DNA of 64,000 bases from Arabidopsis thaliana. Taxonomy: Eukaryota; Streptophyta; Magnoliopsida; Brassicales; Brassicaceae. The stretch spans positions 12,890,001-12,954,000 of the forward strand of contig NC_003070.9 in assembly GCF_000001735.4 (NCBI RefSeq), given 5' to 3'. This document shows positions 3,791 through 58,778 of the stretch, in pieces. Every line of letters starts with the position of its first letter. Positions within the stretch are counted from its first letter, which is position 1. The translations under genes were made by a program, and so were the position numbers. The notes beneath the pieces were generated by a model. The model searched no databases and was not told the origin of the DNA. It saw nothing but the letters and a program-made list of their open reading frames with translations.

Positions 3791-4687
3791 ACATTTCTTT
3801 GATGATGTTGGTGTTAATCTCACCGAGAAGTTGCATATCCTCTACGAATCGAAAAGTTACAACCGTCTAAAACGAGAAAAAGGGTTCTCGACAATGATGG
3901 TCCATGCATGATCTCTTGGCTCATTCGTGGTGATAGTCTCTTTGGTCATACCTTTCATCCCATCTCTTGGTTCGAACAGTGTGACCTGATCAATTGTCGG
4001 TCACTGGCGGTGCAAATCAGAGAGCTCGTGATGTCTGCTTAAAATAGTCACGTAAAGTCCAAAGCTATTATGTGGTAAAAGTTGTTGTTAAAAAACAAGA
4101 AAGTAAGATGCTCAATCCGGAAAGGAACATATGGAAAAAGCAAGATACTCAAAAGCGAAAGATGGTCGGTGAACTGTTTGGAAAAACGTAAAAAGTAAGG
4201 TATTCAAAAGAAAACGAATTATAGAGTTTCCAGGTAAATGTGGGAGCTACAAAAGTGTTGCAAGATCCTTTGAAAAGTCTCGCTCTCAAAAACACACATT
4301 CGTAAAGCTTGACCGATATATATTTATTATTCTAAATACATGTGAACGAACATCTCAAAGTAGTTTCATTTGTTGACAAAGATAGTTGCTATCGAAATTT
4401 TACATTACGTATTGCATCTGAATGATTTATCTGTTTATAATTTTCAGTTTTAAGATTCATGGACTAGCGTTTTGTCGACAGTGTCGGTCTAATGGAACTA
4501 CTTGTCCGAATCCAAGAAAATAAGTTTACTTAAAAATGTATATATCATGGACTACTAATATGACAACTAATTTTGGTGGTTTTAAAGATATAACCATACT
4601 TTAAAACAGTTATTTGCATCTACAAGAATTGAAAAAATTGATATCTTGCATTTTGGCCCGAACATGGTTATCTACAAAAAAACTAAA
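3791..4687. other. unannotated AT-rich stretch
   Basis: No open frame longer than about 60 codons and no recognised domain. It runs from the truncated 5' side of the RPL4 fragment to the first Mutator-like terminus. Confidence 0.5.
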
Positions 4688-5192
4688 GGGAGAAATATCG
4701 AAAAAATCACGAACTTTCAAATTTGAGACAAACAAATTATGAACTTTCGAAATATCATTTAAATCTCAAATTTTAGTTTGACTTAATAATAAAATGGTTA
4801 AGTTTTGTTGACTGAGTCATTTTAGGCAGGTTTTTTGTTAACTTTTGATGGAGTTGATTTTCCCTAACGTTTGGGTTTAGAATGATACCTTATATGTATT
4901 TAGAAATATACCTTATAAGCTTTCTGATACCCTACGTTGTGCTGATTTTTCTCTTTAACGATACCTTATATGTATGTAGAAGATTTATTTATTTTCCAAA
5001 CGCTACGAAAAGTTAACTCCGTTTTTTTTTTGTTAAAGGAAATTTATCGATATGTCTAAAATGACCCAGTTATCGAATTTTAACTCTGTTATTAAAAAGT
5101 CAAACCAAACTTTTGAGATTTTAATGACATTTCAAAAATTCATACTTTTTCGTACTAAATTTAAAAGTTTGCGATAATTTGACATTTTTCCC
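4688..5192. mobile_element. non-autonomous Mutator-like element, short, diverged
   Basis: Starts GGGAGAAATATCG and ends GACATTTTTCCC. Both arms carry the same family words, in inverted orientation, as the neighbouring element at 5330: AACTTTCAAATTTGAGA and AACTTTCGAAAT on the left, TTTCAAAAATTCAT and AATTTAAAAGTTTG on the right. The ~200-bp interior encodes nothing. The flanks are A-rich and do not give a clear 9-bp duplication. Call rests on terminus similarity. Confidence 0.6.
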
Positions 5193-5319
5193 AAAAAATA
5201 AATGTAGGGTTTTTGTTATGTATTCATTGTAGATAGGGAAGAGAGAGAGAAAAAAATAAGAAGAAGTTTTTTTAATCAAATTGGAGAAAAGTTTCTTAAT
5301 ACAATGTTAAGTTATATGG

Positions 5320-5329
5320 ATTTTATATT
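5320..5329. repeat. target-site duplication of MULE, left copy
   Basis: ATTTTATATT, identical to 6495-6504 on the other side of the element. Confidence 0.88.
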
Positions 5330-6494
5330 GGGAAAAATGTCAAAACAATCATGAACTTTCAAATTTGGGATGAAAAAAACGTGAACTTTCGAAATGCCAC
5401 TAAAATCATAAAATTTCGTTTGACTTTTGATAAAATGATTAAGTTTCGTTGACTTTGCTATTTTGGGCATGTCGTTAAGTTTCCGTTAACAACAAAACAA
5501 CGGAGTTAACTTTTCGTTAACATTTTCCGTTAGAAGCGAAACGACGTCGTTTCAAAATGAAAATATATTACACAATATTTGCCAAGAAGGAATCGAACTC
5601 ATGACTCTCCAGAATTATTACAAGCGCTCAACCAATATGCTACGATAACGTTTTGATTTTTTTGTAAACTGAAATATATATATATGTATATATACGCAAA
5701 ACTAATTAAAAATAACCGAACTATAAAAACAATAACCAAACATGTAAAAATATGAAATACACCTACCATTAATATATATTTCGAAATAATAATGTAATTT
5801 TTTTTATTAAATGTATTGAATTAAAAAAATTTCTCTTAAAATATAAAAATGAAACTTGTGAAATATAGAACCTATAAATATATTACCAATTTTTTTTCTT
5901 ATATACTTTCCATCTAAATATGAATAACAAATTGATTTGAAGATGGAATAATGATCTTATATTTATCTTTTATCAAATATTTATCAAATATATGTTTTAT
6001 TATAAATAAAATTATATATAAAGTGAAATTGAATGAAACTCTATGTGCATGTATAGATTAATCCTATATTTATATGAGAAGGATTGGGTAAATTTTCTCT
6101 ATTATTGAATTATTTTAGTTGGTTATTTTTAATTTATTACGTATATATATATATGTTTACAATACTTCTAAAACGTTAACATGGCTCAATGGTTTAGAGC
6201 TTTAATAGCATTGAGAAGGTCACTAGTTCGATTCTTCCTTGTGTTTGTTTTTGTTTCTTTTTTCCAATTTCAAAATGACGTCGTTTTGCTTTTAACGGTA
6301 AATGCTAACAAAAAATTAATCCTGTTATTTTTTTGTTAACGGAAACTTAACGACATGCTTAAAATGGCAAAGTCAACAAAACTTGACTATTTTATCAAAA
6401 GTCAAGCAAAACTTTACAATTTTATTGGCAGTTTGGAAGTTCACGTTTTTTTCGTCCCAAATTTGAAAGTTCATGCTTTTTTTGACATTTTTCC
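5330..6494. mobile_element. non-autonomous Mutator-like element with long terminal inverted repeats
   Basis: The element begins GGGAAAAATGTCAAAA and ends TTTTTTTGACATTTTTCC, with inverted arms of at least ~190 bp (AACTTTCAAATTTGGGA, AAAACTTGACTATTTTATCA and similar). It is flanked by identical 10-bp direct repeats ATTTTATATT at 5320-5329 and 6495-6504, the 9-10 bp duplication expected of MULEs. Further in, each arm has an ACGTC palindrome (near 5545 and 6275) and a tRNA-like segment (5583-5650 and 6176-6243). No transposase frame is present. Confidence 0.88.
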
Positions 6495-36907: not shown

Positions 36908-36916
36908 TTAAAAATA
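36908..36916. repeat. 9-bp target duplication, left of ARF20-bearing unit
   Basis: TTAAAAATA, matching TTAAAAACA at 42286-42294 with one mismatch. Confidence 0.6.
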
Positions 36917-37456
36917 AGGAAAAATGTCAAAACAAATCACAAATTTTTAAATTTGGGACGATTTAATCTACAACTTCACGGAAGACAAATAAATCGTAAA
37001 GTTTTTGTTGACTTTCTAAATAAATGACACAGTTTTTGTTGACTTGCCACTTGAGTCATGTCGTTAAATAGGTTAACAGATTTTTTTACGATGTTAATGT
37101 CTCGTTTATTTGCTCTGTTAAAACAAAACAACATCGTTTATTGTACGTCGTTTTGTCTGTTGAAACAAATTAAAGCCTAAATTCCCAAATCGTGTTACAC
37201 AAATTTCTTTTCAAAATATCATAAAATAAATATTACACTCAAATTTTTAGAATGTAGATGTGATATGTAGATTGTATAAATTAGAAAGAAAGCTCAATAT
37301 CACGACAACAAGAGGATTTTATTTCATTTATGGACGATGGAAACAAAAGTGCATAATACAAATGCATGCAACAACAAATAAGAGAAAAATAAAAATAGAA
37401 CGAGACACCGATAACATTTTTGACCCCTTTTTATTACATATTTTTTTATTCTTAAT

Positions 37457-40400
37457 TCAACTTGAGAGACTCTTACTGGACTTTAGGTTTTTGACCTCCT
37501 CTTTTGAATATATCAATATCTTCTTCACCATTTTGCAGAATTCACTACATGCAAACAACACAAAAATGAAATATCAATGTCTCTCAAGATTTTAACTAAT
37601 CTTTTAATCAATAGAAATAGAAAGGAAACTCACGGCCATGGATCGTCTCCAACAAGCATCTCATACCCGTCACTATCTGTGAAAGCTATTTTCCATTGGT
37701 TGCGAGTTTGTAGTTGGCCTTTGAGATCAAAGAGCTTCTCCAATTCTAGTATTAGCTGATCATATCCATTAAGAACACTTAAATCCACAGCTCTTCCTAT
37801 TGTTACACCTTGCATTTGAACCTGTTCCATATCAAGATTGCATGAGTTGAGTACAATGAGAAAAAGTTTCATATATAAGGAATAAGAATATTGATCTTAT
37901 ACTTACTTTGGTACAAGTTCTAGTAGAACCAAACTGCTTGCTTTGGATCTCTATTGGTGATCTCAAAGTTTGGCTTTGACCAAACTTTTTTCCTTCAGTA
38001 AGTTTCGAAATATCCGAGCCAATTTCTTCAATGGGATCTTTGATCACTAGAGGAATGGCTAGAGAGACTCCAAACAGCCTAAAATTAGTGACTGCCTTGG
38101 TTGTTATATTTTCTTCTATTTGTGTAACCATTTGGTTATTGTAATTTAGTTTGGGCATTGGTTGGACAGGGTAGCTCATTAGCAATCTAGAAGGATTCAT
38201 AGCATCTTCAGTTGTATCACGATAACGAAGAGAAGTATTCATCGGGGAGGCGACGCTTAGTTGTCCAATTTCTTGTCCTTGTGTCAATATAGGAGGCAAG
38301 ATATGTGATGATGAAGAACATGTATATAAAACAAGAATATTGAGAAGGTATTCAAGAGTCTCAAATTCATTAAATAGAAGATTAATCCTTTAAATAAAAG
38401 ATTATAAGAGTGTATTTTTATACCGAATTCATTAACTTCTCGTAAACGCTTGTTCTTGAGCAAAGATGATCGCGGAACATTTAACGCAGACATTAAATGT
38501 TCGATCTCCCAGGGTGACACTTTATTAGGTCTCGAAAATGATGCAAATTCATCCCACTGAACCTGCAAAATTAAAGTTAATTAGTGATATGTTATTTATT
38601 GCACTCAAAAACGTATTCCTAAAAGAATGTTATAAAGTGTGAATGAAATTTTACTTCTAAGCTGCGCCACTCTGAACACTTCCAATGAGGAGAGAAATCA
38701 TTAACTCCAATAATTGTCCCAAAATATCTTAATCAATTGAACAAAATGTGTTATCATTGATAATATTAAACATTATAAATATATTTATGCAGAAATTTTT
38801 TTTCATCTAATGTTACCTTCTTTCAGAGAAATCATCACCCTCAAACCGCATTGTAAATCTTGAACCGACAATGAACTTATTGTTCATAGCGTCTAAGAAT
38901 TTGTCGTAACTGACAATAAATTGACTTGACCTGATACTTAGAAAGACACAAAATATAAACCTATATGTTGAAGGAACTAATCTATTGATAAATCAATATA
39001 ATCTAAAATGTGAGTTCAAATGGTTCTTTGAATTACCTTGGCTTGTAAACCACAATGAATATACATTGGTTATCAAGAGCATGCTTTGCGGAAGCAATTA
39101 CCCCATGTCTCATACAATCTATTGATACTATTGATGAAGGTATATTCCCTTGTTGATGTCTTGCTCGTCTGATACCAACTCGTAACTCTCCAGTCTCTCC
39201 CCTAAAACCACAAGTAAATAGTTTAAAAGTCCAAAACTCCAAAACCAAAAGATATATAACAAGAATCAATATTATACCTAACGAATACAATAACATCTCC
39301 TTTAACCAACTTTTTCGATGTTGTGAATTCATTCCAACCAGTTGTTAACGAATGTCTTTGCGGTGTACCTGCATGGAATAAGAAGATTATTAGTTACTTC
39401 TCTAGGATTTATTACCTCAATAGCTGTGTTTGAATGATTTGAATAAAATGAATTATTACCTCTATAGCTGTGTCTGAATCTCCATTGATTACCATGGAGA
39501 TCTTTAGCAAGAAGTTCTTGTGCCGGTAGAGGCTGAGACATATCCTAAACCAAAATTTAATATGTAATGTCTAATGAAATCTTAAAATTCAAATTCATTT
39601 AAAAAAATTATAACATTAAATACCAGTGGAGGGAGACATTCAATGGCATGTTTTTTCGGAACAAAGAATCCACCATAAGCGCTTGTATCAGAGGCCGTTA
39701 AAACCTTCGTAAAGGAATTAACTAATGGCCTAAATTGATTTTCACTCTGAGTAGGGATTACAACTTGCTAAGGATTTAACAAAATCAGAAAATCAATGAG
39801 ATATAATAGGAGAAAAATACAATTGACTGAAAATAAAAGAGAAATACTAAATTTTCACTTACAGTTGTATCTGGCATCAAAGTGATCTCAGCATAAGTCT
39901 CATCACTATTGTTTTCCACCTAAAATCAAACATCAAACAATTAACCAATTACTTCTTTTTACAATGAAATCAAATATAGATATCATGCGTATTTGCTAAA
40001 ACATAATAGAGATATACCTTAAGATGAATTGCAATAACACGGCATTGAAGCTTAGAAGGAAGATCACAAATTGGTTGTAACTCATTCAACTCTTCTCTTG
40101 TAGATGCATCAACCTGAAAAGGCCGTCAAAAGGTTTCATACACAAGAGAGAGATAGAGAGAAAGAAGAGAGAGAGAAGAAAGGGAGATAGAAAGAAGAAA
40201 GAGAGAGAGAAGAGAGAAAGAGAAGAGAGAGAGAAGAGAGGGAGAGAGAGAGAGAGAGAGAAGAGAGGGAGAACTCACAAGCTCTATATTGCCTTGAGGA
40301 AAGTAATAAACATTTTCTCCAAGTTTTGGAATATCACACAAAGGTCCCGCACAGAGTTTCCATAACTGCTCGTACATATAGCTCTTGGATCCATCAACTG

Positions 40401-40523
40401 CCGAACAAAAACCAAAAAATTATAACCAAAACAAGTTTTCAATAAGAGAAAATAAAAAAGTTAAAATTTCTTACTTATGCCTGATAATTCAGGTTGTGCA
40501 TTCACAACGTTGCCAGTTTCCAT
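37457..40523 (-). CDS. ARF20: auxin response factor (ARF20), 14 exons
   Basis: Exons, 5' to 3': 40523-40475, 40397-40279, 40113-40018, 39919-39863, 39767-39624, 39544-39460, 39368-39278, 39201-39037, 38930-38817, 38727-38655, 38562-38424, 38319 (or shorter)-37907, 37821-37634, 37544-37457. Up to 606 residues. The B3 DNA-binding domain is at ~126-228 ([41 protein letters not shown]), the ARF ancillary domain at ~250-330 ([21 protein letters not shown]), then a short middle region and a C-terminal PB1/Aux-IAA domain ([24 protein letters not shown]). Nuclear auxin-response transcription factor of the recently expanded ARF12-15/20-22 group. The acceptor of exon 12 expected from related proteins reads AT, not AG; in-phase AGs lie 42 or 48 bases downstream. 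Confidence 0.9.
40139..40272. repeat. purine (GA/GAAA) tract in ARF20 intron 2
   Basis: About 130 bases of near-pure A/G (AGAGAGAA, GAAGAAAG), so the pre-mRNA carries a long CU-rich tract just after the exon 2 donor. Confidence 0.9.
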
Positions 40524-41924
40524 AACCTCGTATCCAAATATCGGTATACCAAAATATGTTATCTCAACAATTATTATAAAACTTTCTCCCTTTCCTCAAC
40601 TTCTCTCGCGACCATGATAGCACAAAATATCACATTTATAGGTAAGAACTATCAAAATACATTAAAATACTTCCTTAGATTTGAATACTAAATTTAATAA
40701 GGTTACCAAAAATTAATAAAGGTAATTTAGAGAAATGTCATTAATATTTTGACTACACATAAGAAAATCAATTTTCTTATATGTTTATTGATTAAGTTAC
40801 CAAAATCAACATATGCATTATTCATATATAAGTTGAGTAATATAATACATTTTTAATACTTACAATGAAAAAAAATCTTTGAATTTTGTTTATAGATAGC
40901 CATATAAATTTAAATAGGAGTTCTTGCTAGCTTTTTCTTTTCAACATATGCATTACTCATATATAAGTTGAGTGATATAGGAAAATTTTAGTACTTACAA
41001 CAAAATATTTTTTTCTATGAAATTTGTTTAAAAGTAGCCATATAAATTTTAAATATGAGTTTTTGCTTGATTCTGATTGCATTAATAGGAATTCTCTAGC
41101 ATTATGATCAAACCTTTCATATGGGATCTATGGTACATCTCATGTTAGGTTATTTTTTTTTTGCTTCCTCTTTAAGTTTTTAAGGATCCCATATAAACCG
41201 GCTTTCTCATATATTGTCGCTCTTTGGAGAAATTTCCAAGGGCATGTTCTCTTTTCCATTTAGCTTCCCCTTTCCATTTAACTATGATGTGAATTTGCAT
41301 GTATCCGATGCCTATTGGGATGTCTTTGGTATCAGGGGTAGATCACCGGTGGTGGTGATGGTTTGGCCTTACAAGGGGATGTGGCTTATAGTATGATGAA
41401 TTCCATCAAAAATGTACAAGGGCTTCTCGCTGCCTCTCAACCTAAATGTCAGTTAAGCATTTTTGCTCTATGTTTTATATTGATAATTATAATAGTTATT
41501 AATTATTATTAATGATAATTATTTAGCTTATAGAATTTTTTTTTATCATCTATAGAGAAATTATTAATTGAATAAACTTATTTAATTCATTAATTCAATA
41601 ATTTAAATGACTAATTGTTTTATCCAAACCATTTGCTAAATGAATTAGATTGACTCATTATCCATTAGAATCTAAATTTATATAAATATAGATTGGTTTG
41701 ATTTGGTTTAACCAACTTGACATCCGTAAATATAACACCCACAAAAAAAAAAAAATTATAACACATTAGTCAGACAACATAAAAAAAACTTATAACTCAT
41801 CTTCTTCTTATAACTCATCTTCTTCTTATAACTCATCATCTTCTTCTTCTTCTTTTGTTGAAGAGTAAATTCACCAAGAGAGCCGACATGGAGATAGAGA
41901 AGATGATTGTTGGGTCTGCGGTTT
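40524..41924. other. ARF20 upstream region inside the transposable unit
   Basis: AT-rich. A diverged direct repeat pair (CAACATATGCATTA(T/C)TCATATATAAGTTGAGT) lies near 40805 and 40943. A 60-codon frame at 41214-41396 is not recognised. Confidence 0.4.
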
Positions 41925-41966
41925 GTGATAGATGGAGATTTAGGGTTTAAATTTGTTTTAACACAC

Positions 41967-42110
41967 AAAACGACGTCGTTTTGTCCTTGCAATAAACGAC
42001 GTCGTTTTGTCTCTGTAATAAATGACGTCGTTTTGTCTCTGTAATAAACGACGTCGTTTTGTCTCTACAATAAACGACGTCGTTTTGTCTCTACAATAAA
42101 TGACGTCGTC
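41967..42110. repeat. 26-bp tandem repeat, six copies, with ACGACGTCGT palindrome
   Basis: Units of AAACGACGTCGTTTTGTCTCTGTAAT type start at exact 26-bp spacing (GACGTC cores offset from 41971, 41997, 42023, 42049, 42075 and 42101). Every unit contains the palindrome GACGTC with an ACGT core. It lies in the right inverted arm of the ARF20-bearing unit. Confidence 0.95.
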
Positions 42111-42285
42111 ATAAAAAATAAAATTGTTAACCTATTTAACGACATTACTCAAATGGCAAGTCAACAAAAACTTTATTTATTATTTAGGAAGTCATAAAAA
42201 ACTTTACGATTTATTTATTTCAGTGAAGTTGAAGATTAAATCGTCCCAAATTTAAAAGTTTATAAAATTTTTAATATTTTTGCCC

Positions 42286-42294
42286 TTAAAAACA
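42286..42294. repeat. 9-bp target duplication, right of ARF20-bearing unit
   Basis: TTAAAAACA, one mismatch to 36908-36916. Confidence 0.6.
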
Positions 42295-43045
42295 CTTTAA
42301 CATTTTTTCTGAAGATATACAAATATATATGGCGCCAAGTCATAGTATTATTGACTATAGAAACCCACACGATTATAAGACGAAATATAAATTTAATGGA
42401 TAAATTGGATGTACAAAGAGATATATAACATAATATGAATAAAAGAAAGAAAAGAGAACGAGTTTCACAACATGTACAAAAATCATAAGAATGTCACAGG
42501 AGTGGACATAGAGCGGATATCATGAATTTGTGTGATTTTTGATTAGTTTCCTCTGTTCGATCGGCCATTTGTTTTTATCCATACCCGTTCTGTAACGACT
42601 TATGTCAAAAGATAGATATTCTGACCGATATTGATTACTTCAGATTTTGTTTTTTTCACCAGTTACGTGATAAGATTTTTAAAATAATTAATATATAGCA
42701 AATTTCAAAATTCAACAAACAAAAAGCACTATTGATATATTTTAGGATTAATGTGATGAATACAAATTCATAAAAATTTAAACCTAGATATAATAAACTA
42801 TACAGTTTAAATATATATAATTATATGTATACATATATCATCACATATATCTTGCTCTTCAGATTTTAGTACTATGATTTGCCTCATTTTAATAGGTATT
42901 AAGTTTGAATCTTTGTCCAAAAAAAAAATTTGAATCTATGTTTTGGTCTGTAAAATTATGGATATTTATATTTTCTGCATCAAATCGAAATTGTAACAAA
43001 CCAAAATATATAGGTCATAAATTTTGTGATGCCCTAGAATGTGGA
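42295..43045. other. intergenic, downstream of ALT2
   Basis: AT-rich sequence and probable ALT2 3' UTR. No gene is recognised. Confidence 0.5.
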
Positions 43046-44465
43046 TCAATCGACCAAGTGTTGACACTGGAAGTGACCAAAATATGAGCGTACATGAGAT
43101 GGGACACGAGTAGGCCGGTACTTGTTGTCAAGCCACACAGCCGTTCCTTTTGCCTCCAAAATAGGCTGCTTTGTCAATTATATACCAAAAGGATCCTAAT
43201 TAATCAAAACTATACACAAGCAGAAAACCAACACAAAAGGCTTGATGGAGCAACTAAATATACCTCTTGATTTGGAAGTTTAAAGATGAACTGTTCAAAG
43301 TAAATGCGCACCAAAGATATCCCCGATATCCTCGTTTTCACCACAAACCTACATCCACTCTGCTCGAAGATATCAACATAAATACAAACATTAACTCTAT
43401 AAAAGAGAACAAATATTCTTGGAAAAGAGAGTAAGAATATTACACGTAAAGGTGCAAGGAACTTTATTGTTAACTCAGGAATTGCCAAGGCTCCACCAGA
43501 ACGGGATACTTCATTACAGTTGATACCGATACTATCCATAAACTCGTGTCGACCTTTGTATATATGAAAATAAGTTTAACAAACCATTTTTTGTAAGAAT
43601 GTGACATAGCACTAACGTAAGTACACGTCTCGACTTCAATCGAGGGTTTATAATAATTTGAGACCGCACAAAATTTATAACTAAAGAAAACTAACCGTGT
43701 TGGCAGTAGTTTGCGTAAACAGCATTGTTCACAACACCAAACTGATCCAATTCATAATCACGAACTTTAAGTTCAATCTCATGGAACCCACCAATTCTGC
43801 CATATAGAGATTTTAATAAGATAATAAAGCAACATAATTACATTCACTCCTCTTGGCCACTATATATAAGAAACGTAGTCATTACACACAAAAACAAAAT
43901 CATAAATATAAAACTCCAATATATATGTAACAAGAAATAGTAGTTGCAAACATATATTTCTCTTTTTTTTTTTTTTTTACAAACTCGCTAAAAAAAATGA
44001 TAATCGTAGGTCATAAAAGGAAGTACATTTATATGGCCGTGAGAAGGTAAATGTGTGAATAATTTAGCTAGTTAGTTACCCTTGGCCTTAGTTTATAATT
44101 TTAAAAACTATTCAGTCATCACCTTAATATGCTACAACTGAACCAAAGTTACAATTAAGAAATCTCCTCTCAATTTCTTGGACTCTCAAATTTCTTAGGA
44201 AAAGGGCATTGTTTTTAGAACTAAGGCACGTGATAGTTGCCTTAGTAGCAACTAGCAAGAATACCCCTCGATGAAATAAGATTAGCTCTTATGAATTTAA
44301 ATGAGGGAGGTATATGTATGTGTACCCTGTGCTTCCTCTGAGTTCGAGACATGCGAGGGGCTTGAAGATTTTTGCACTCCGGAGAGGCAGGACATGCCCT
44401 CGCCTCCAAGAACGGGGAAACGCCGCATGCATAATCTGAGCCCCCGTGCTGGTAGCTTGAAACAT
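43046..44465 (-). CDS. ALT2: plastid acyl-lipid thioesterase (hotdog fold), ALT2
   Basis: Exons 44465-44326, 43796-43696, 43553-43444, 43359-43264 and 43165-43046 join in phase to 188 residues. Residues 1-47 form a basic, acid-poor plastid transit peptide. A single 4HBT hotdog domain follows, with [20 protein letters not shown]; Asp of DQFGVVNN is the catalytic residue in this class. FVVKTRISG and [14 protein letters not shown] strands complete the fold. ALT-type enzymes hydrolyse acyl-ACP (fatty and beta-ketofatty acyl) in plastids, releasing free acids and methylketone precursors. All splice sites are GT-AG. The product is a close paralogue of the gene at 57760-58778, with identical intron phases. 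Synteny: At1g35250. The ALT number is assigned by gene order. Confidence 0.9.
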
Positions 44466-49660: not shown

Positions 49661-51551
49661 TCAATCTGATGTTCCAAGCATCTTCAAGATGATAGGGTAC
49701 ATACAATGCAACTCACACGCTCTGCAAAGTGGACGAGACATACTATTATTGCGCACCACCTCATATAATCTGTGGGAATACGTTAGTATGCTTCTTGGCA
49801 TCAGCCCTGCAAAGTCTCCCAGCACGCATTGTGTATGCAAACTAGCTCGGTGCTCTTTACACGTGTAGAACCATCTCTTTGGATTCCCTTCTTTCTAACA
49901 AATGTCACACCAGTATTTGCCACTTGCCGTTTCGCCATAGCATAGTGAGAGTGGATGATCGTCTACTCTATGCTTTACCACTTGTGGTAAAGTGGCACAA
50001 TTGAAGCATACCAAAAATCCACAACCACTTTCAATGCACGTAAGCAGAAGAGATGACCAACGGTTGCAGCCATTGCATTGTTTTCGACCCACTAATGGAA
50101 TGTAATATAAGGGATGATGAGGATGACTCGGATGGACAAATGGTTCAGAAATTGAACCACACAGTACATCTAACTTAATATCCCCACATTGGTACTTGAA
50201 ACCATTGGAGAGTCTATCACACGCAGTGCAGTGAAAATAATCATCCTTGCTTGTAACTAAAGTAAGACGTTCATTATGCAGCACATGCCATATCTTTCTA
50301 CGATATTCAGCGCAGTTTTGGTGAAGAAGGAAATCACAATCGATAGAGCTATAGAAGGATTGGAGACAAATGGGGTGGGTGCAAGCGCTGCACCACTTGT
50401 TTTCCTCCCAAAGAAGATCATTAACGTGGAATCTCAGGTAATGCTCTTTGTGGCTGAAATATTGTATTGTGTTGTCATCTATTACCACATATGGCTCTAT
50501 ATCTTCTGTCTCTTCTGGTATTCCTTCGAGTTCTTTCCCATTCCACACATCTTTTCTAGTAGCACATATTGAATGAACGACATAGTGAGGACACTTCTGA
50601 CAAGAATACCCACCCCAAGTCCAATCCACCTTCCGATGACATACTCCACATACAGAATTCACAACACCAAGAACAGAAGTGCGTGAAACACGGTGATCAT
50701 GTCGATTGATGTTAATGAGGCGTGGAAGGGAAAGACACTTTTGATGTATCATGAAATCACATTGAACACATATATAATCAAGCATTACATGTAAAAGAAT
50801 CAAGTCTTGGGCGAAAGATGAGTTGGTGAGCATGAATCTTCAAATCCATAAGAGATTGTGCTGGTGGGTTTAAAAACCAACGCTTATCCAAGCTGAAGTT
50901 ACATGCAGAACAATGATAAAAGAATTTATCATAAATCTTTTGTTCGCAAAAACGACATTTACCATCGGAATACTCTGGTGGTTGACCTATGTGGAGCTGA
51001 AGAGGGTGCAAAGATTGGTGAGAATGGTTTACCTCTAACAAGTTTTTTGCTTCCGGTGGATTCCATACGCAATCAACATGGAAGGTTAAATTACATTCAT
51101 GGCATCTATAAGAAAACTCATAACCAACCTTCCAACGCTTAGCGTCACAAAGGAACTGGCTCTGATCCTTGAGAAGAGTGAGCTTGTGATGATGTGTCTC
51201 GAAATTATCAATAACCTCTGGCGGTGGGTACTTGACGCAGTATAGATCCACATCGAAGTTGCAGATCTCACAACGATAGCATAGATCCATGATGCTCTTG
51301 TCACATAAATCACATCTATGTTGTGGTTTACTTTGAAGCTTCAAAGTGTGAACAGAGTGAGATGGATATTCAATTTATTCAGAGGCCTCATCTACACATT
51401 GTTTGTGAACAAAGAAGTCACAACTTTCGCAGTAATAGGAACCACTGGTAAATCCTGAGCGTCCACAGCAATCACCTTTTCAATGATAATCATTCAAAAG
51501 CATCATAAGATGCTTGTGGATTAATGGTAGTGACACTCCCTCAGATGCCAT
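49661..51551 (-). pseudogene. DC1 (Cys/His-rich C1) domain protein, broken
   Basis: From ATG 51551 the minus strand encodes MASEGVSLPLIHKH, then at least seven C1-like zinc modules (HRCDLCDKSI..CYRCEICNFDVDLYC; FSYRCHECNLTFHVDC; CRFCEQKI..FYHCSACNFSLD; CGVCHRKV; WCSACTHPI; FHCTACDRLSNGFKYQC; CNGCNRW; YWCDIC). The frame is interrupted by TGA at 51480-51482, TAA at 51375-51377, a frameshift near 50779 and TAG at 49895-49897. After the last stop, homology continues to TGA 49661 (WFYTCKEH; RPLCRACELHC). Intronless, as is usual for the family. Intact DC1 proteins are zinc-binding and often implicated in stress signalling. Confidence 0.88.
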
Positions 51552-54130: not shown

Positions 54131-56494
54131 CATATAATGTTGGACAAGGCATGGGTTCGTCTATGCAGGTAAGCAGATAATTAATATGGGTTAGTTTTCT
54201 GATTAGGTTTGGTTGCTTTAAGAGTTTTTTTTATTTTTCCTGTTTACTTGAAGAGCTGATCCTGGATATGAGAAAGGTGCTCAGAAATTTGTAACCGATG
54301 TGGCTGCTGCATTAGGAGACATTGACATGATAGTATGTCCCTGCAAAGACTGTCGTAATGTGGAACGAAAGTCAGGCAGCGATGTGGTGGATCATCTTAA
54401 GAAGGGGGATGGATGAGGCTTACAAGTTGAGAGCTGATTGGTATCATCATGGGGACGTGGACTCAGTGGCTGACTGTGAGAGCAACTTCAGTCGTTGGAA
54501 TGCTGAAATTTTGGAGCTATACCAAGCAGCTCAGGGTTTTGATGCTGACTTAGGTGAGATTGCAGAGGTTGAGGACATAAGAGAAGATGAGTTTCTGGCA
54601 AAGTTAGCAGATGCTGAAACAGCTCTATATCCTAGCTGTTTAAACCACAGCAAGCTGTCTGCTATAGTGACTTTTTAGGATCAAGACCAAAAATGGTTGG
54701 TCCGATAAGAGTTTCGTTGAACTCCTTGGAACATTGCCAGAGATGTTGCCCGCAGACAATGTGCTTCATACATCATTGTATGAAGTCAAGAAATTTCTAA
54801 AGAGCTTTGATATGGGATATGAAAAGATTCATGCATGTGTAAACGACTGCTGTCTATTTAGAAAGAGGTACAAGAATCTAGAAAATTGTCCTAAATGCAA
54901 TGCGTCACGGTGGAAGAGTAACATGCAAACTGGAGAAGCTAAGAAAGGAGTCCCACAGAAGGTATTACGATACTTTCCGATAATTCCACGGTTTAAGAGA
55001 ATGTTCAGATCAGAGGAAATGGCCAAGGACTTAAGGTGGCATTATAGTAACAAAAGCATTGATGGAAAACTTCGTCACCCTGTAGATTCTGTTACATGGG
55101 ATAAGATGAATGACAAGTATCCTGAATTTGCTGCTGAAGAAAGAAACCTGCGGCTTGGCCTTTCAACAGATGGATTTAATCCATTCAACATGAAGAATAC
55201 TAGGTATAGTTGCTGGCCTGTTCTGTTAGTAAACTACAATTTGCCGCTTGACCTATGTATGAAGAAGGAGAACATAATGCTAAGCCTGCTTATTCCTGGA
55301 CCACAACAACCTGGAAATAGTATTGATGTGTACTTAGAACCCCTTATTGAAGATCTTAACCATCTGTGGAAGAAGGGTGAGTTAACATATGATGCCTTCA
55401 GTAAGACTACATTCACTCTAAAGGCAATGCTTTTATGGACCATCAGTGACTTTTCCGCCTATGGAAACCTTGCTGGATGCAAAGTTAAAGGTAAAATGGG
55501 TTGTCCTCTATGTGGAAAAGGCACAGATAGTATGTGGTTGAAATATAGCAGAAAGCATGTGTTTATGTGTCATAGAAAAGGGTTGGCACCAACACATAGT
55601 TATAGAAACAAGAAGGCTTGGTTTGACGGAAAGATAGAACATGGGAGAAAGGCAAGAATTCTAACAGGTCGTGAAGTTTCACAAACCCTGAAAAACTTCA
55701 AAAATGATTTCCGGAATGCTAAAGAATCTGGGAGGAAGAGAAAAAGGAATGATTGCATTGAATCAGTCACTGATAGTGACGATGAATCTAGTGAATCCGA
55801 AGAAGATGAGGAACTAGAAGTAGACAAAGATGAGTTATCAAGATGGAAGAAGAGATCCATTTTTTTCAAGCTGTCTTATTGGGAGGTAAATGTTAATTTG
55901 TCTATTGATCATGTAAGTGACGTTTATGGTGTGATCCTTATGAACTGTTTTTGTATTGTTTAGGATTTACCGGTGAGGCATAACTTGGATGTAATGCATG
56001 TAGAGCGAAATGTGGGTGCAAGCATTGTATCTACTTTGTTACATTGTGGAAAATCCAAAGATGGGCTAAATGCTAGGAAAGATCTGCAAGATCTTGGTGT
56101 AAGGAAGGATTTGCATCCTAACGCACAAGGAAAACGAACATACCTTCCAGCAGCACCTTGGTCTTTGTCCAAATCAGAAAGAAAACATTCTGCAAGCGTC
56201 TGTTTGAGTTTAAAGGTCCTAATGGGTATTGTTCTAATATATCAAGGCGTTTCTAAGGAAAATATGAAGTGCAAGTTGATGGATATTACCGGAAAGAAAC
56301 GAGTTGTGGCGGAAGGACGTTGGGCAACAAAAGATCCAAAACAGAAGGTTCACTTTGTTCCATTGGGTGATAATGCAGTTAAAGTGTGGGTCGATATTGT
56401 GAAAGTAAGCGATGTAAAAGTGTGGAGGCCATCAGATGAAGTCGAGATCATGGAAGATGCACTTGGCACAGAGGATAAGGTTATCATGTCTTGA
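54131..56494 (+). pseudogene. CACTA transposase TNP2-like, internally deleted
   Basis: Frames around 54137-54360, 54358-54678, 54734-55963 and 55973-56494 rebuild a TNP2 protein. A transposase-associated domain comes first (CPCKDCRN, GMDEAYKLRADWYHHGD), then the Tnp2 core (NDCCLFRKRY, CPKCNASRW, VLRYFPIIPRFKRMF, MAKDLRWH, RLGLSTDGFNPF, WPVLLVNYNLP, MLSLLIPGP, HNLDVMHVERNV). Frameshifts near 54400, 54672 and 56185, and an in-frame stop behind the last, disable it. Most of the C-terminal half is deleted, and the end jumps to a later-type module (VVAEGRWATKDPKQKVHFVPLGDNAVKVWVD). An intron at 55889-55962 is kept. Catalyses DDE transposition when intact. Confidence 0.88.
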
Positions 56495-57044: not shown

Positions 57045-57759
57045 CTATTATTTGTTACTCTATTTATTTAGGAAAATACATAGAACATAGAACATTAATG
57101 TATATGCTTAATAGTTTTCGTTTTTATGTATGAGAGTTTGTTAAAAAGATATAGTCTTAAATACAATATAAATTAGTTTAATAAAAGCAACAAATTTGTG
57201 TAATACAATAAAGTTAAAATGAATGGAGACCCGGTTTAGGATGCAACACTTCACCTTTTTACCATACATTGGTTTAACATTTTCACATATATTGTATCTT
57301 GCTTTGGTTAGTTTTCCAAACAACCATCTAGTATTATGTTTCAAAAGAACATGATAATAGAAGACATAATGCTACACAACATAGTATTCAAATACCGATA
57401 TGTAATGGCGTAGTTTTTTTCTTTTGTATATAAACTAATTTTATCTTTATCAATATATTTAAAATTCATAAAAATATATGAATTTAAAACTTAAGAAAAA
57501 ATCACTAATATATATACTCATGTTTACTAGAATTAAACATAATAATTATAAAATATTGCATGTAAAAACATTATAAGAAAAAACAAAAACTGTCCACCTC
57601 TCCCGACTATATGTAATTTGCTTCGTTTTGATGAATGGATATTGAGTTTATTAGTGTATCTTTTGCTCCATATCATTACATATGTCTATCTTTTCGTATC
57701 AAATTGCAGTAGAAAACATACCAAAGCGAAATATAACAAATATTTTGTCGAGCCCTAGA
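57045..57759. other. intergenic, downstream of ALT1
   Basis: AT-rich, with the probable ALT1 3' UTR at its right end. No gene is recognised. Confidence 0.5.
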
Positions 57760-58778
57760 TCAATATTCGACAACGTGTTGACGTTGGAAGTGACCGAAAT
57801 TAGAGCGTATGTAAGACGGGATACAAACAGGACGGTACCTCTTGTCAAGCCACACAGCCATTCCTTTTGCCTCCAAAATAGGCTGCTTTGTTAATGATAC
57901 ACAAAATGGATCGAAATAAGAATTCCAAATAAAAACCAACAAAAAGGCTTGATGAGATCAACAAAATATATAACCTCTTGATTTGGAAGTTTAAAGATGA
58001 ACTGTTCAAAGTAAATGCGCGTCATAGATGTCCCCGATATCCTCGTTTTCACCACAAACTTGCATCCACTCTGCTAAAAGAAATCAAATCAATATAAAAA
58101 CTAAAAACAATGATCTTATAAAATATGACAAAACATTATAGGAAACACAGGGTCAAAATTACACGTAAAGGTGCAAGAAACTTTATTGTCAATTCAGAAA
58201 CTGCCAATGCTTCACCAGAACGGGACACTTCATCACAGTTGATACCGATAGTCTCCATAAACTCGTGTTGACCTTAGTATAAAAACATGTTTAACAAACA
58301 ATAGTTTGTAAGAATGAGATATAGCTTAATAATAAAAACTGTTTCAGCATTTGCATCACAATTAAACTAACCGTGTTGGCAGTAGTTTGCATAAACAGCG
58401 TTGTTCACAACACCAAATTGGTCTAATTCATAATCACGAACTTTAAGTTCAATCTCATGGACTCCATTCATTCTGCCATATGGAAATTTCAATAAGACTA
58501 TGAATCAGAAATATTAGATATAACTATGCCCTCTTGGCCATTATAGACTCTACAAATCTTGATGCCTAGTCCAAGTGTCGGTTACCAAAACAAAAATTAC
58601 ACCACTAAAGAAATGAAATTAGAAAGATCTTTCGGTACCCTTTGCCTCCTTGCTGTTTGAAACATGAGAGAGGTTTGAAGGTCTTTGTGCTCCGGAGAGG
58701 TAGGATAAGCGGTCGACTCGAAAAACAGGGAAACACCACGTGCATAGCCGGAGCCACTGTGCCGGTAGCTTTAAGCAT
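57760..58778 (-). CDS. ALT1: plastid acyl-lipid thioesterase (hotdog fold), ALT1
   Basis: Exons 58778-58639, 58472-58372, 58272-58163, 58070-57975 and 57882-57760 join to 189 residues. The first four exons have exactly the lengths of ALT2 (140, 101, 110, 96), and the last is one codon longer. A transit peptide ([17 protein letters not shown]...) precedes the 4HBT domain with [19 protein letters not shown]; the catalytic Asp is present. Predicted plastid acyl-ACP thioesterase. An upstream in-frame ATG (58817) would add 13 residues, but the ALT2 alignment favours 58778. The gene lies between two CACTA elements yet is undamaged. Synteny: At1g35290. Confidence 0.9.

Follow-up and report, generated by a model that had tools for sequence, protein, structure and literature searches.

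A complete ARF20 gene between the inverted arms of a Mutator-type element in Arabidopsis thaliana: a probable whole-gene capture

The window analysed in this study is a stretch of 64,000 nucleotides from Arabidopsis thaliana (NC_003070.9, C1:12890001-12954000), belonging to the 119.66-Mb, 7-contig assembly in which the genome searches were performed; positions are counted from its first letter. It contains a Mutator-type element of 5.4 kb (36917-42285), in which the whole 14-exon gene of the auxin response factor (ARF) ARF20 lies between the inverted ends. The locus comprises the following features.

36908..36916, no strand: left target-site repeat TTAAAAATA, matching the right repeat at 8/9 positions, directly outside the family terminus with zero slide
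36917..37192, plus strand: left terminal inverted arm, ending in CCCAAATCG; 50 of its 59 further genomic matches are at 82-91%
37190..37192, no strand: putative left capture junction, a 3-bp overlap (TCG) of the arm inner end and the ARF paralogues; similarity to 6/6 loci starts at 37190
37190..41788, minus strand: putatively captured ARF unit of 4,599 bp (promoter region, gene and 3' region), delimited by paralogy to six C1 loci
37457..40523, minus strand: ARF20 coding region, 14 exons, 592-aa model, open across all exons; 99% to UniProt ARF20
41789..41856, no strand: 68-bp filler with an 18-bp tandem repeat, differing from the paralogues
41857..41936, plus strand: Mutator transposase coding remnant, 80 bp, in frame; 94% to C2:5863593-5863672 (E 1.8e-27)
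41937..42285, minus strand: right terminal inverted arm, the inner part of which carries a 26-bp tandem array; identity to the left arm 79.4%
42286..42294, no strand: right target-site repeat TTAAAAACA, matching the left repeat TTAAAAATA at 8/9 positions

The ARF20 model contains the B3 (PF02362), ARF_AD (PF06507) and AUX_IAA (PF02309) domains and matches UniProt ARF20 of A. thaliana (590 aa) over its full length, differing only in two short splice choices of 4 and 2 residues. At position 38320 ARF20 has T where the paralogues have G at the exon-12 splice acceptor (AG in 5/5 aligned copies, the ARF copy at 16.67 Mb having a gap there); the exon-12 junction of UniProt ARF20 is the same as in the model, via a downstream acceptor. 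The gene is known to function: in PMC11208147, pARF20::ARF20 completely restores the endosperm timing of the arf13 arf20 mutant, and pARF13::ARF13 does so partially.

Comparison of the arm regions by BLAST aligned 36915-37145 with 42288-42066 in inverted orientation, with 79.4% identity over 233 bp (E 6.6e-51), and an additional inverted piece pairs 37123-37182 with 42010-41938. The left arm reaches 37184 by family matches, or 37192 when the alignment is read by eye, and the inner start of the right arm lies at about 41934-41938. The 9-mers TTAAAAATA and TTAAAAACA abut both termini without any slide. Among random pairs of 9-mers from the ARF20 region the chance of agreement at 8/9 positions or better is 0.0004, rising to 0.0017 with the left 9-mer fixed and to 0.0077 when a slide of 2 bp is allowed at both ends; mismatched flank pairings among ten elements, ARF20's included (n=90, no slide), reached a maximum of 6/9. 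The sequence-only reading of this locus, in which inverted arms and a 9-bp repeat bracket one complete ARF20 gene with an open 14-exon model, is thus borne out.

The arms belong to a dispersed transposon family. The left arm has at least 59 further genomic matches besides itself, the right arm of the same element among them, spread over about 35 places; this is a lower bound, the best 40 of 93 candidates having been scored. For the right arm, with the best 40 of 58 candidates scored, the best genomic matches are at 78-80% over about 220-255 bp. Many members of the family are two-armed elements of about 520-660 bp. Target repeats were determined, with a slide of up to 3 bp, in 15 family elements, made up of 13 of 24 loci chosen by eye as having both arms largely present and of two long relatives: eight have 9/9 repeats, one 8/9, one 7/9, four 5-6/9, and one is incomplete. 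Of the four with 5-6/9, three have one arm end that was not aligned, and the fourth is L074, one of the long relatives.

These long relatives, L073 (C2:5861205-5865907) and L074 (C1:16659688-16664323), each encode DBD_Tnp_Mut, MULE and SWIM domains, those of Mutator transposases, across two open frames. L073, 4.7 kb in length, has a perfect 9-bp target repeat; in L074 the arms are 98.7% alike and the target repeat is unrecognisable (5/9). L074 sits about 7 kb from the ARF unit at 16.67 Mb. The 80-bp remnant located between ARF20 and the right arm is in the same open frame as the transposase of L073. Given the family termini and this remnant, the ARF20 element is taken to derive by deletion from a transposase-bearing member of the family. 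The two ordinary Mutator-like elements (MULEs) of the window, at about 4679-5200 and 5329-6494, had been assigned to the same family as the arms; they proved to be only distant relatives, at 68-73% to the ARF20 arms except for one 44-bp piece at 82%. The element at 5329-6494 has a 9/9 repeat, ATTTTATAT, found using a wide slide, and no target repeat was resolved for that at about 4679-5200.

To delimit the cargo, a genome search was performed with 37185-41900, which identified six close ARF units, all on C1, at 12.51, 12.56, 12.58, 13.08, 13.11 and 16.67 Mb. They are given here by position, as names for them would rest on map positions and ARF20 alone was named by a database match at its own locus. 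The cargo, which extends 1,265 bp upstream and 267 bp downstream of the coding region, matches the 12.58-Mb and 13.08-Mb loci at 94% by search (95.6% and 95.2% on alignment) and the other four at 89.5-93.7% on alignment. The 12.58-Mb and 13.08-Mb loci alternate as the nearest relative and are about equidistant, so that neither was picked as a single donor. The upstream part of the unit, at 41481-41788, includes about 240 bp of interspersed repeat, whose many genomic matches are for the most part at 66-74%, with a few higher; no match from the 12.51-Mb and 16.67-Mb loci runs across it.

Flanks were compared between ARF20 and these six loci, the most diverged member, ARF13, being left out. On the left, similarity to 6/6 loci begins at 37190, and ARF20 shares 0 bp beyond it. 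The six sister loci have at least about 415 bp more of left flank in common in 15/15 pairs, and four of them have further common pieces out to 1.5-5.8 kb. Since the six loci share a longer left flank while the similarity of ARF20 stops at the inner edge of the arm, ARF20 is the truncated copy. On the right, the limit of paralogy is 41787-41788 in three loci (13.08, 12.56 and 13.11 Mb), which have 55-64 bp in common past 41788 that are absent from ARF20; the 12.58-Mb locus diverges 24 bp before 41788, and the match ends well short of it in the 12.51-Mb and 16.67-Mb loci. The expectation that homology to the paralogues would stop at element-derived or filler sequence was therefore confirmed on the left in all six loci and on the right in three. 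Beyond the arms, over the 6 kb compared on the left and about 3 kb on the right, no return of homology with the other ARF loci was seen; right flanks past 1 kb were compared in 4/6 loci. No arm match (E <= 1e-3) was found in the 90 kb fetched from the six ARF loci, overlapping stretches counted.

The junctions can be described nearly to the base. In 10/14 family elements one arm or both have CCCAAATCG close to the inner end, and the left edge of the cargo, which overlaps this string by three bases, reads TCGTGTTACA in 4/6 paralogues and CCCAAATCGTGTTACAC in ARF20. The right end of the cargo, at 41788, is an A-run, and the filler, the transposase remnant and the arm come next. The filler has no match in the family, and its only matches, at 79-85%, are at a few repeat-like places.

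Taken together, these data make it very probable that a whole ARF gene was captured at the DNA level into a Mutator element, whichever the last step was. The element would be an internally deleted one, in which a DNA-level copy of a single pericentromeric ARF gene, with its introns, took the place of the interior. A break or gap in the element may have been under repair when, at a 3-bp microhomology, synthesis changed template to a sister ARF locus of the same chromosome; about 4.6 kb would then have been copied before the return to the element through the 68-bp repetitive filler, and the captured copy would have stayed a working gene. Such gap repair in place is favoured by the single copy, the microhomology and the filler; together with the same-chromosome relatives, these resemble the gap-filling mode of single-copy Pack-TIRs in animals. 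That the cargo was copied into a resident element, and not brought by a later jump, is given about an even chance, and it ranks somewhat ahead of transport as a unit.

Several observations weigh against this explanation. A microhomology of 3 bp is weak on its own, and the exact string CCCAAATCG is missing from both arms in 4/14 family elements. As the six close relatives are all on C1, a source on the same chromosome says little about the mechanism. The target repeat has one mismatch, and the arm-to-arm identity of the ARF20 element, 79.6% in this comparison, is the lowest of 15 elements (80.0-98.7% in the 14 others), four family elements with perfect target repeats also being low, at 80-84%. 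FastTree pairs the two ARF20 arms as sisters and IQ-TREE places them on adjacent, unjoined branches; owing to this disagreement the trees were not used as evidence for a common origin of the arms. Neither a paralogous empty site nor an unloaded element was seen in this genome when both outer flanks were searched, and the scoring of best candidates leaves room for further copies of the element. Finally, gene conversion among the genes of this group (cARFs), as reported in PMC11208147, obscures both the donor and the date.

The nearest alternative, which is possible and clearly less probable, differs only in the last step: the capture would have taken place elsewhere, and the loaded element, arms and ARF20 together, would have transposed here as a unit. 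The near-perfect 9-bp repeat directly outside both termini speaks for it, but an unloaded element inserting first would leave the same repeat, so that a pre-existing element would also carry it under in-place copying. A unit of 5.4 kb is made plausible in size by the 4.7-kb L073 with its perfect repeat, and transposition-coupled capture is supposed in PMC8277862 to be likely more important in plants. Against this, only one loaded copy is present among the matches listed, and no donor copy bearing arms is seen at the six other loci. Of the proposal that a whole ARF gene had been copied or moved as a transposable unit, the enclosure of the gene with its upstream and downstream DNA in a Mutator-type element stands; the gene may have moved as a unit or been copied into a MULE already present. 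A still stronger version, in which the element copied a whole ARF gene, imprinted and acting in the endosperm, along with all the cis-acting DNA required, and transported it as a unit to a new site, so that a single transposition gave a functional maternally expressed transcription-factor gene, is rather doubtful; if true, expression and imprinting in this ARF group would need no DNA from outside the 4.6 kb of the cargo.

Far less probable is a joint mobilisation, as one, of two adjacent elements that lay on the two sides of an ARF gene and had lost their inner ends, a route proposed for other Pack-type elements in PMC8903248. It would account for the presence of an entire gene and its flanks between the arms, but 0/6 paralogous loci have an arm in the fetched DNA, and the junctions consist of microhomology and of filler beside the transposase remnant, with no remains of inner arms. 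The independent insertion of two small family elements, one to the left and one to the right of an ARF gene duplicated in the normal way, is slightly less probable again: short two-armed elements are common and one arm tree (IQ-TREE) leaves the arms unjoined, but flank homology is not regained past the arms in the stretches compared, the arm regions give one arm per side by BLAST, the target repeat spans both arms and the transposase remnant lies inside. That ARF20 arose as an ordinary tandem or segmental duplicate and has the arms as chance neighbours is hardly credible, even with the cARF group described in PMC11208147 as tandem pericentromeric arrays, since among the seven loci ARF20 alone lacks any common left flank (0/6 loci share one beyond the gene unit, as such a duplicate should) and it is bounded on the left by an arm and on the right by filler next to a transposase remnant. 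The suggestion that transposition had provided a route for the expansion of this ARF subgroup was not upheld, as the six other loci share their left flank and have no arms in the fetched DNA; they fit segmental or tandem duplication, as in PMC11208147.

By the features tested, the ARF20 element is a Pack-MULE: it has long Mutator-family arms with transposase-bearing relatives, a target repeat of about 9 bp (8/9), host-gene cargo with copies elsewhere, and a stop of homology at its inner limits. The usual cargo of Pack-MULEs is gene fragments, and these elements are mostly discussed as fragment shufflers. The ARF20 element is unusual in carrying a transcription-factor gene that is complete, functional and made up of many exons, together with its upstream region. 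A related case is AT1G49715, reported in PMC2869330 as a Pack-MULE and a transposed Arabidopsis gene, which is likewise enclosed by long terminal inverted repeats and has target-site duplications, of 10 bp in its case; ARF20 differs as a regulator with a published seed phenotype, with a retained transposase remnant and with junctions placed by paralogous loci. The single-copy Pack-TIRs of animals, explained by transposition-independent gap filling in PMC8277862, share the single copy, the same-chromosome relatives and the junction microhomology, whereas the present case is a plant Mutator element with a whole gene. For plant Pack-MULEs, the same paper leaves the choice between gap filling and the transposition-coupled model open. 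The histone H3 gene captured by a fungal hAT transposon (PMC6710886) is also a host gene taken by a DNA transposon; it has hundreds of copies, all inactivated but the original gene, in contrast to the one intact copy of ARF20. No report linking ARF20 to a MULE was found among the matches listed in the open-licence literature, at the level of titles and beginnings of abstracts, and the word 'transposable' does not occur in the main text of PMC11208147.

The interest of this element lies in its cargo, a complete gene for which a role in endosperm cellularization has been published, and in the survival of related copies, which allows the capture junctions to be placed so precisely. ARF20 belongs to an expanding, maternally expressed gene group, and capture would explain the origin of one working member. 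It may be regarded as a natural minimal construct, as any regulation common with its relatives must either be encoded in 37190-41788 or arise anew from the surroundings of the new site. The capture model further predicts a specific pattern of presence and absence across accessions and sister species, which would separate gap filling from transposition.

The age of the capture can be given only approximately. Relative to the 12.58-Mb locus, the Kimura two-parameter (K2P) distance of ARF20 is 0.056 in non-coding sequence and 0.030 in exons, with non-synonymous (dN) and synonymous (dS) divergence of 0.024 and 0.052. If 7e-9 substitutions per site per year are assumed, the divergence in non-coding sequence would correspond to about 4 million years, neither bound being firm because cARF gene conversion may make the copy seem younger and a lost donor may make the capture younger than the divergence. 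From the majority of family arms the left ARF20 arm has diverged by 8.5% and the right by 16.7%. In three other elements, L002, L009 and L018, one arm is likewise far more diverged than the other, with a perfect target repeat in L009 and L018 and not in L002. As L009 and L018 have unequal arms despite perfect repeats, the divergence of arms dates the elements of this family poorly. A dating of old arms against young cargo was given little weight, since other elements have unequal arms and gene conversion has been reported for cARFs.

A search of Rfam returned 0 families at gathering level. Outside the ARF20 element, the window contains a duplicated stretch, 42937-43500 matching 57657-58219 at 77%. 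An open frame at 54734-55963 carries a Transposase_21 domain (tnp2 family, CACTA-type). At 49895-51344 a C1_2-domain gene is present in two overlapping frames, and may contain an intron or a frameshift.

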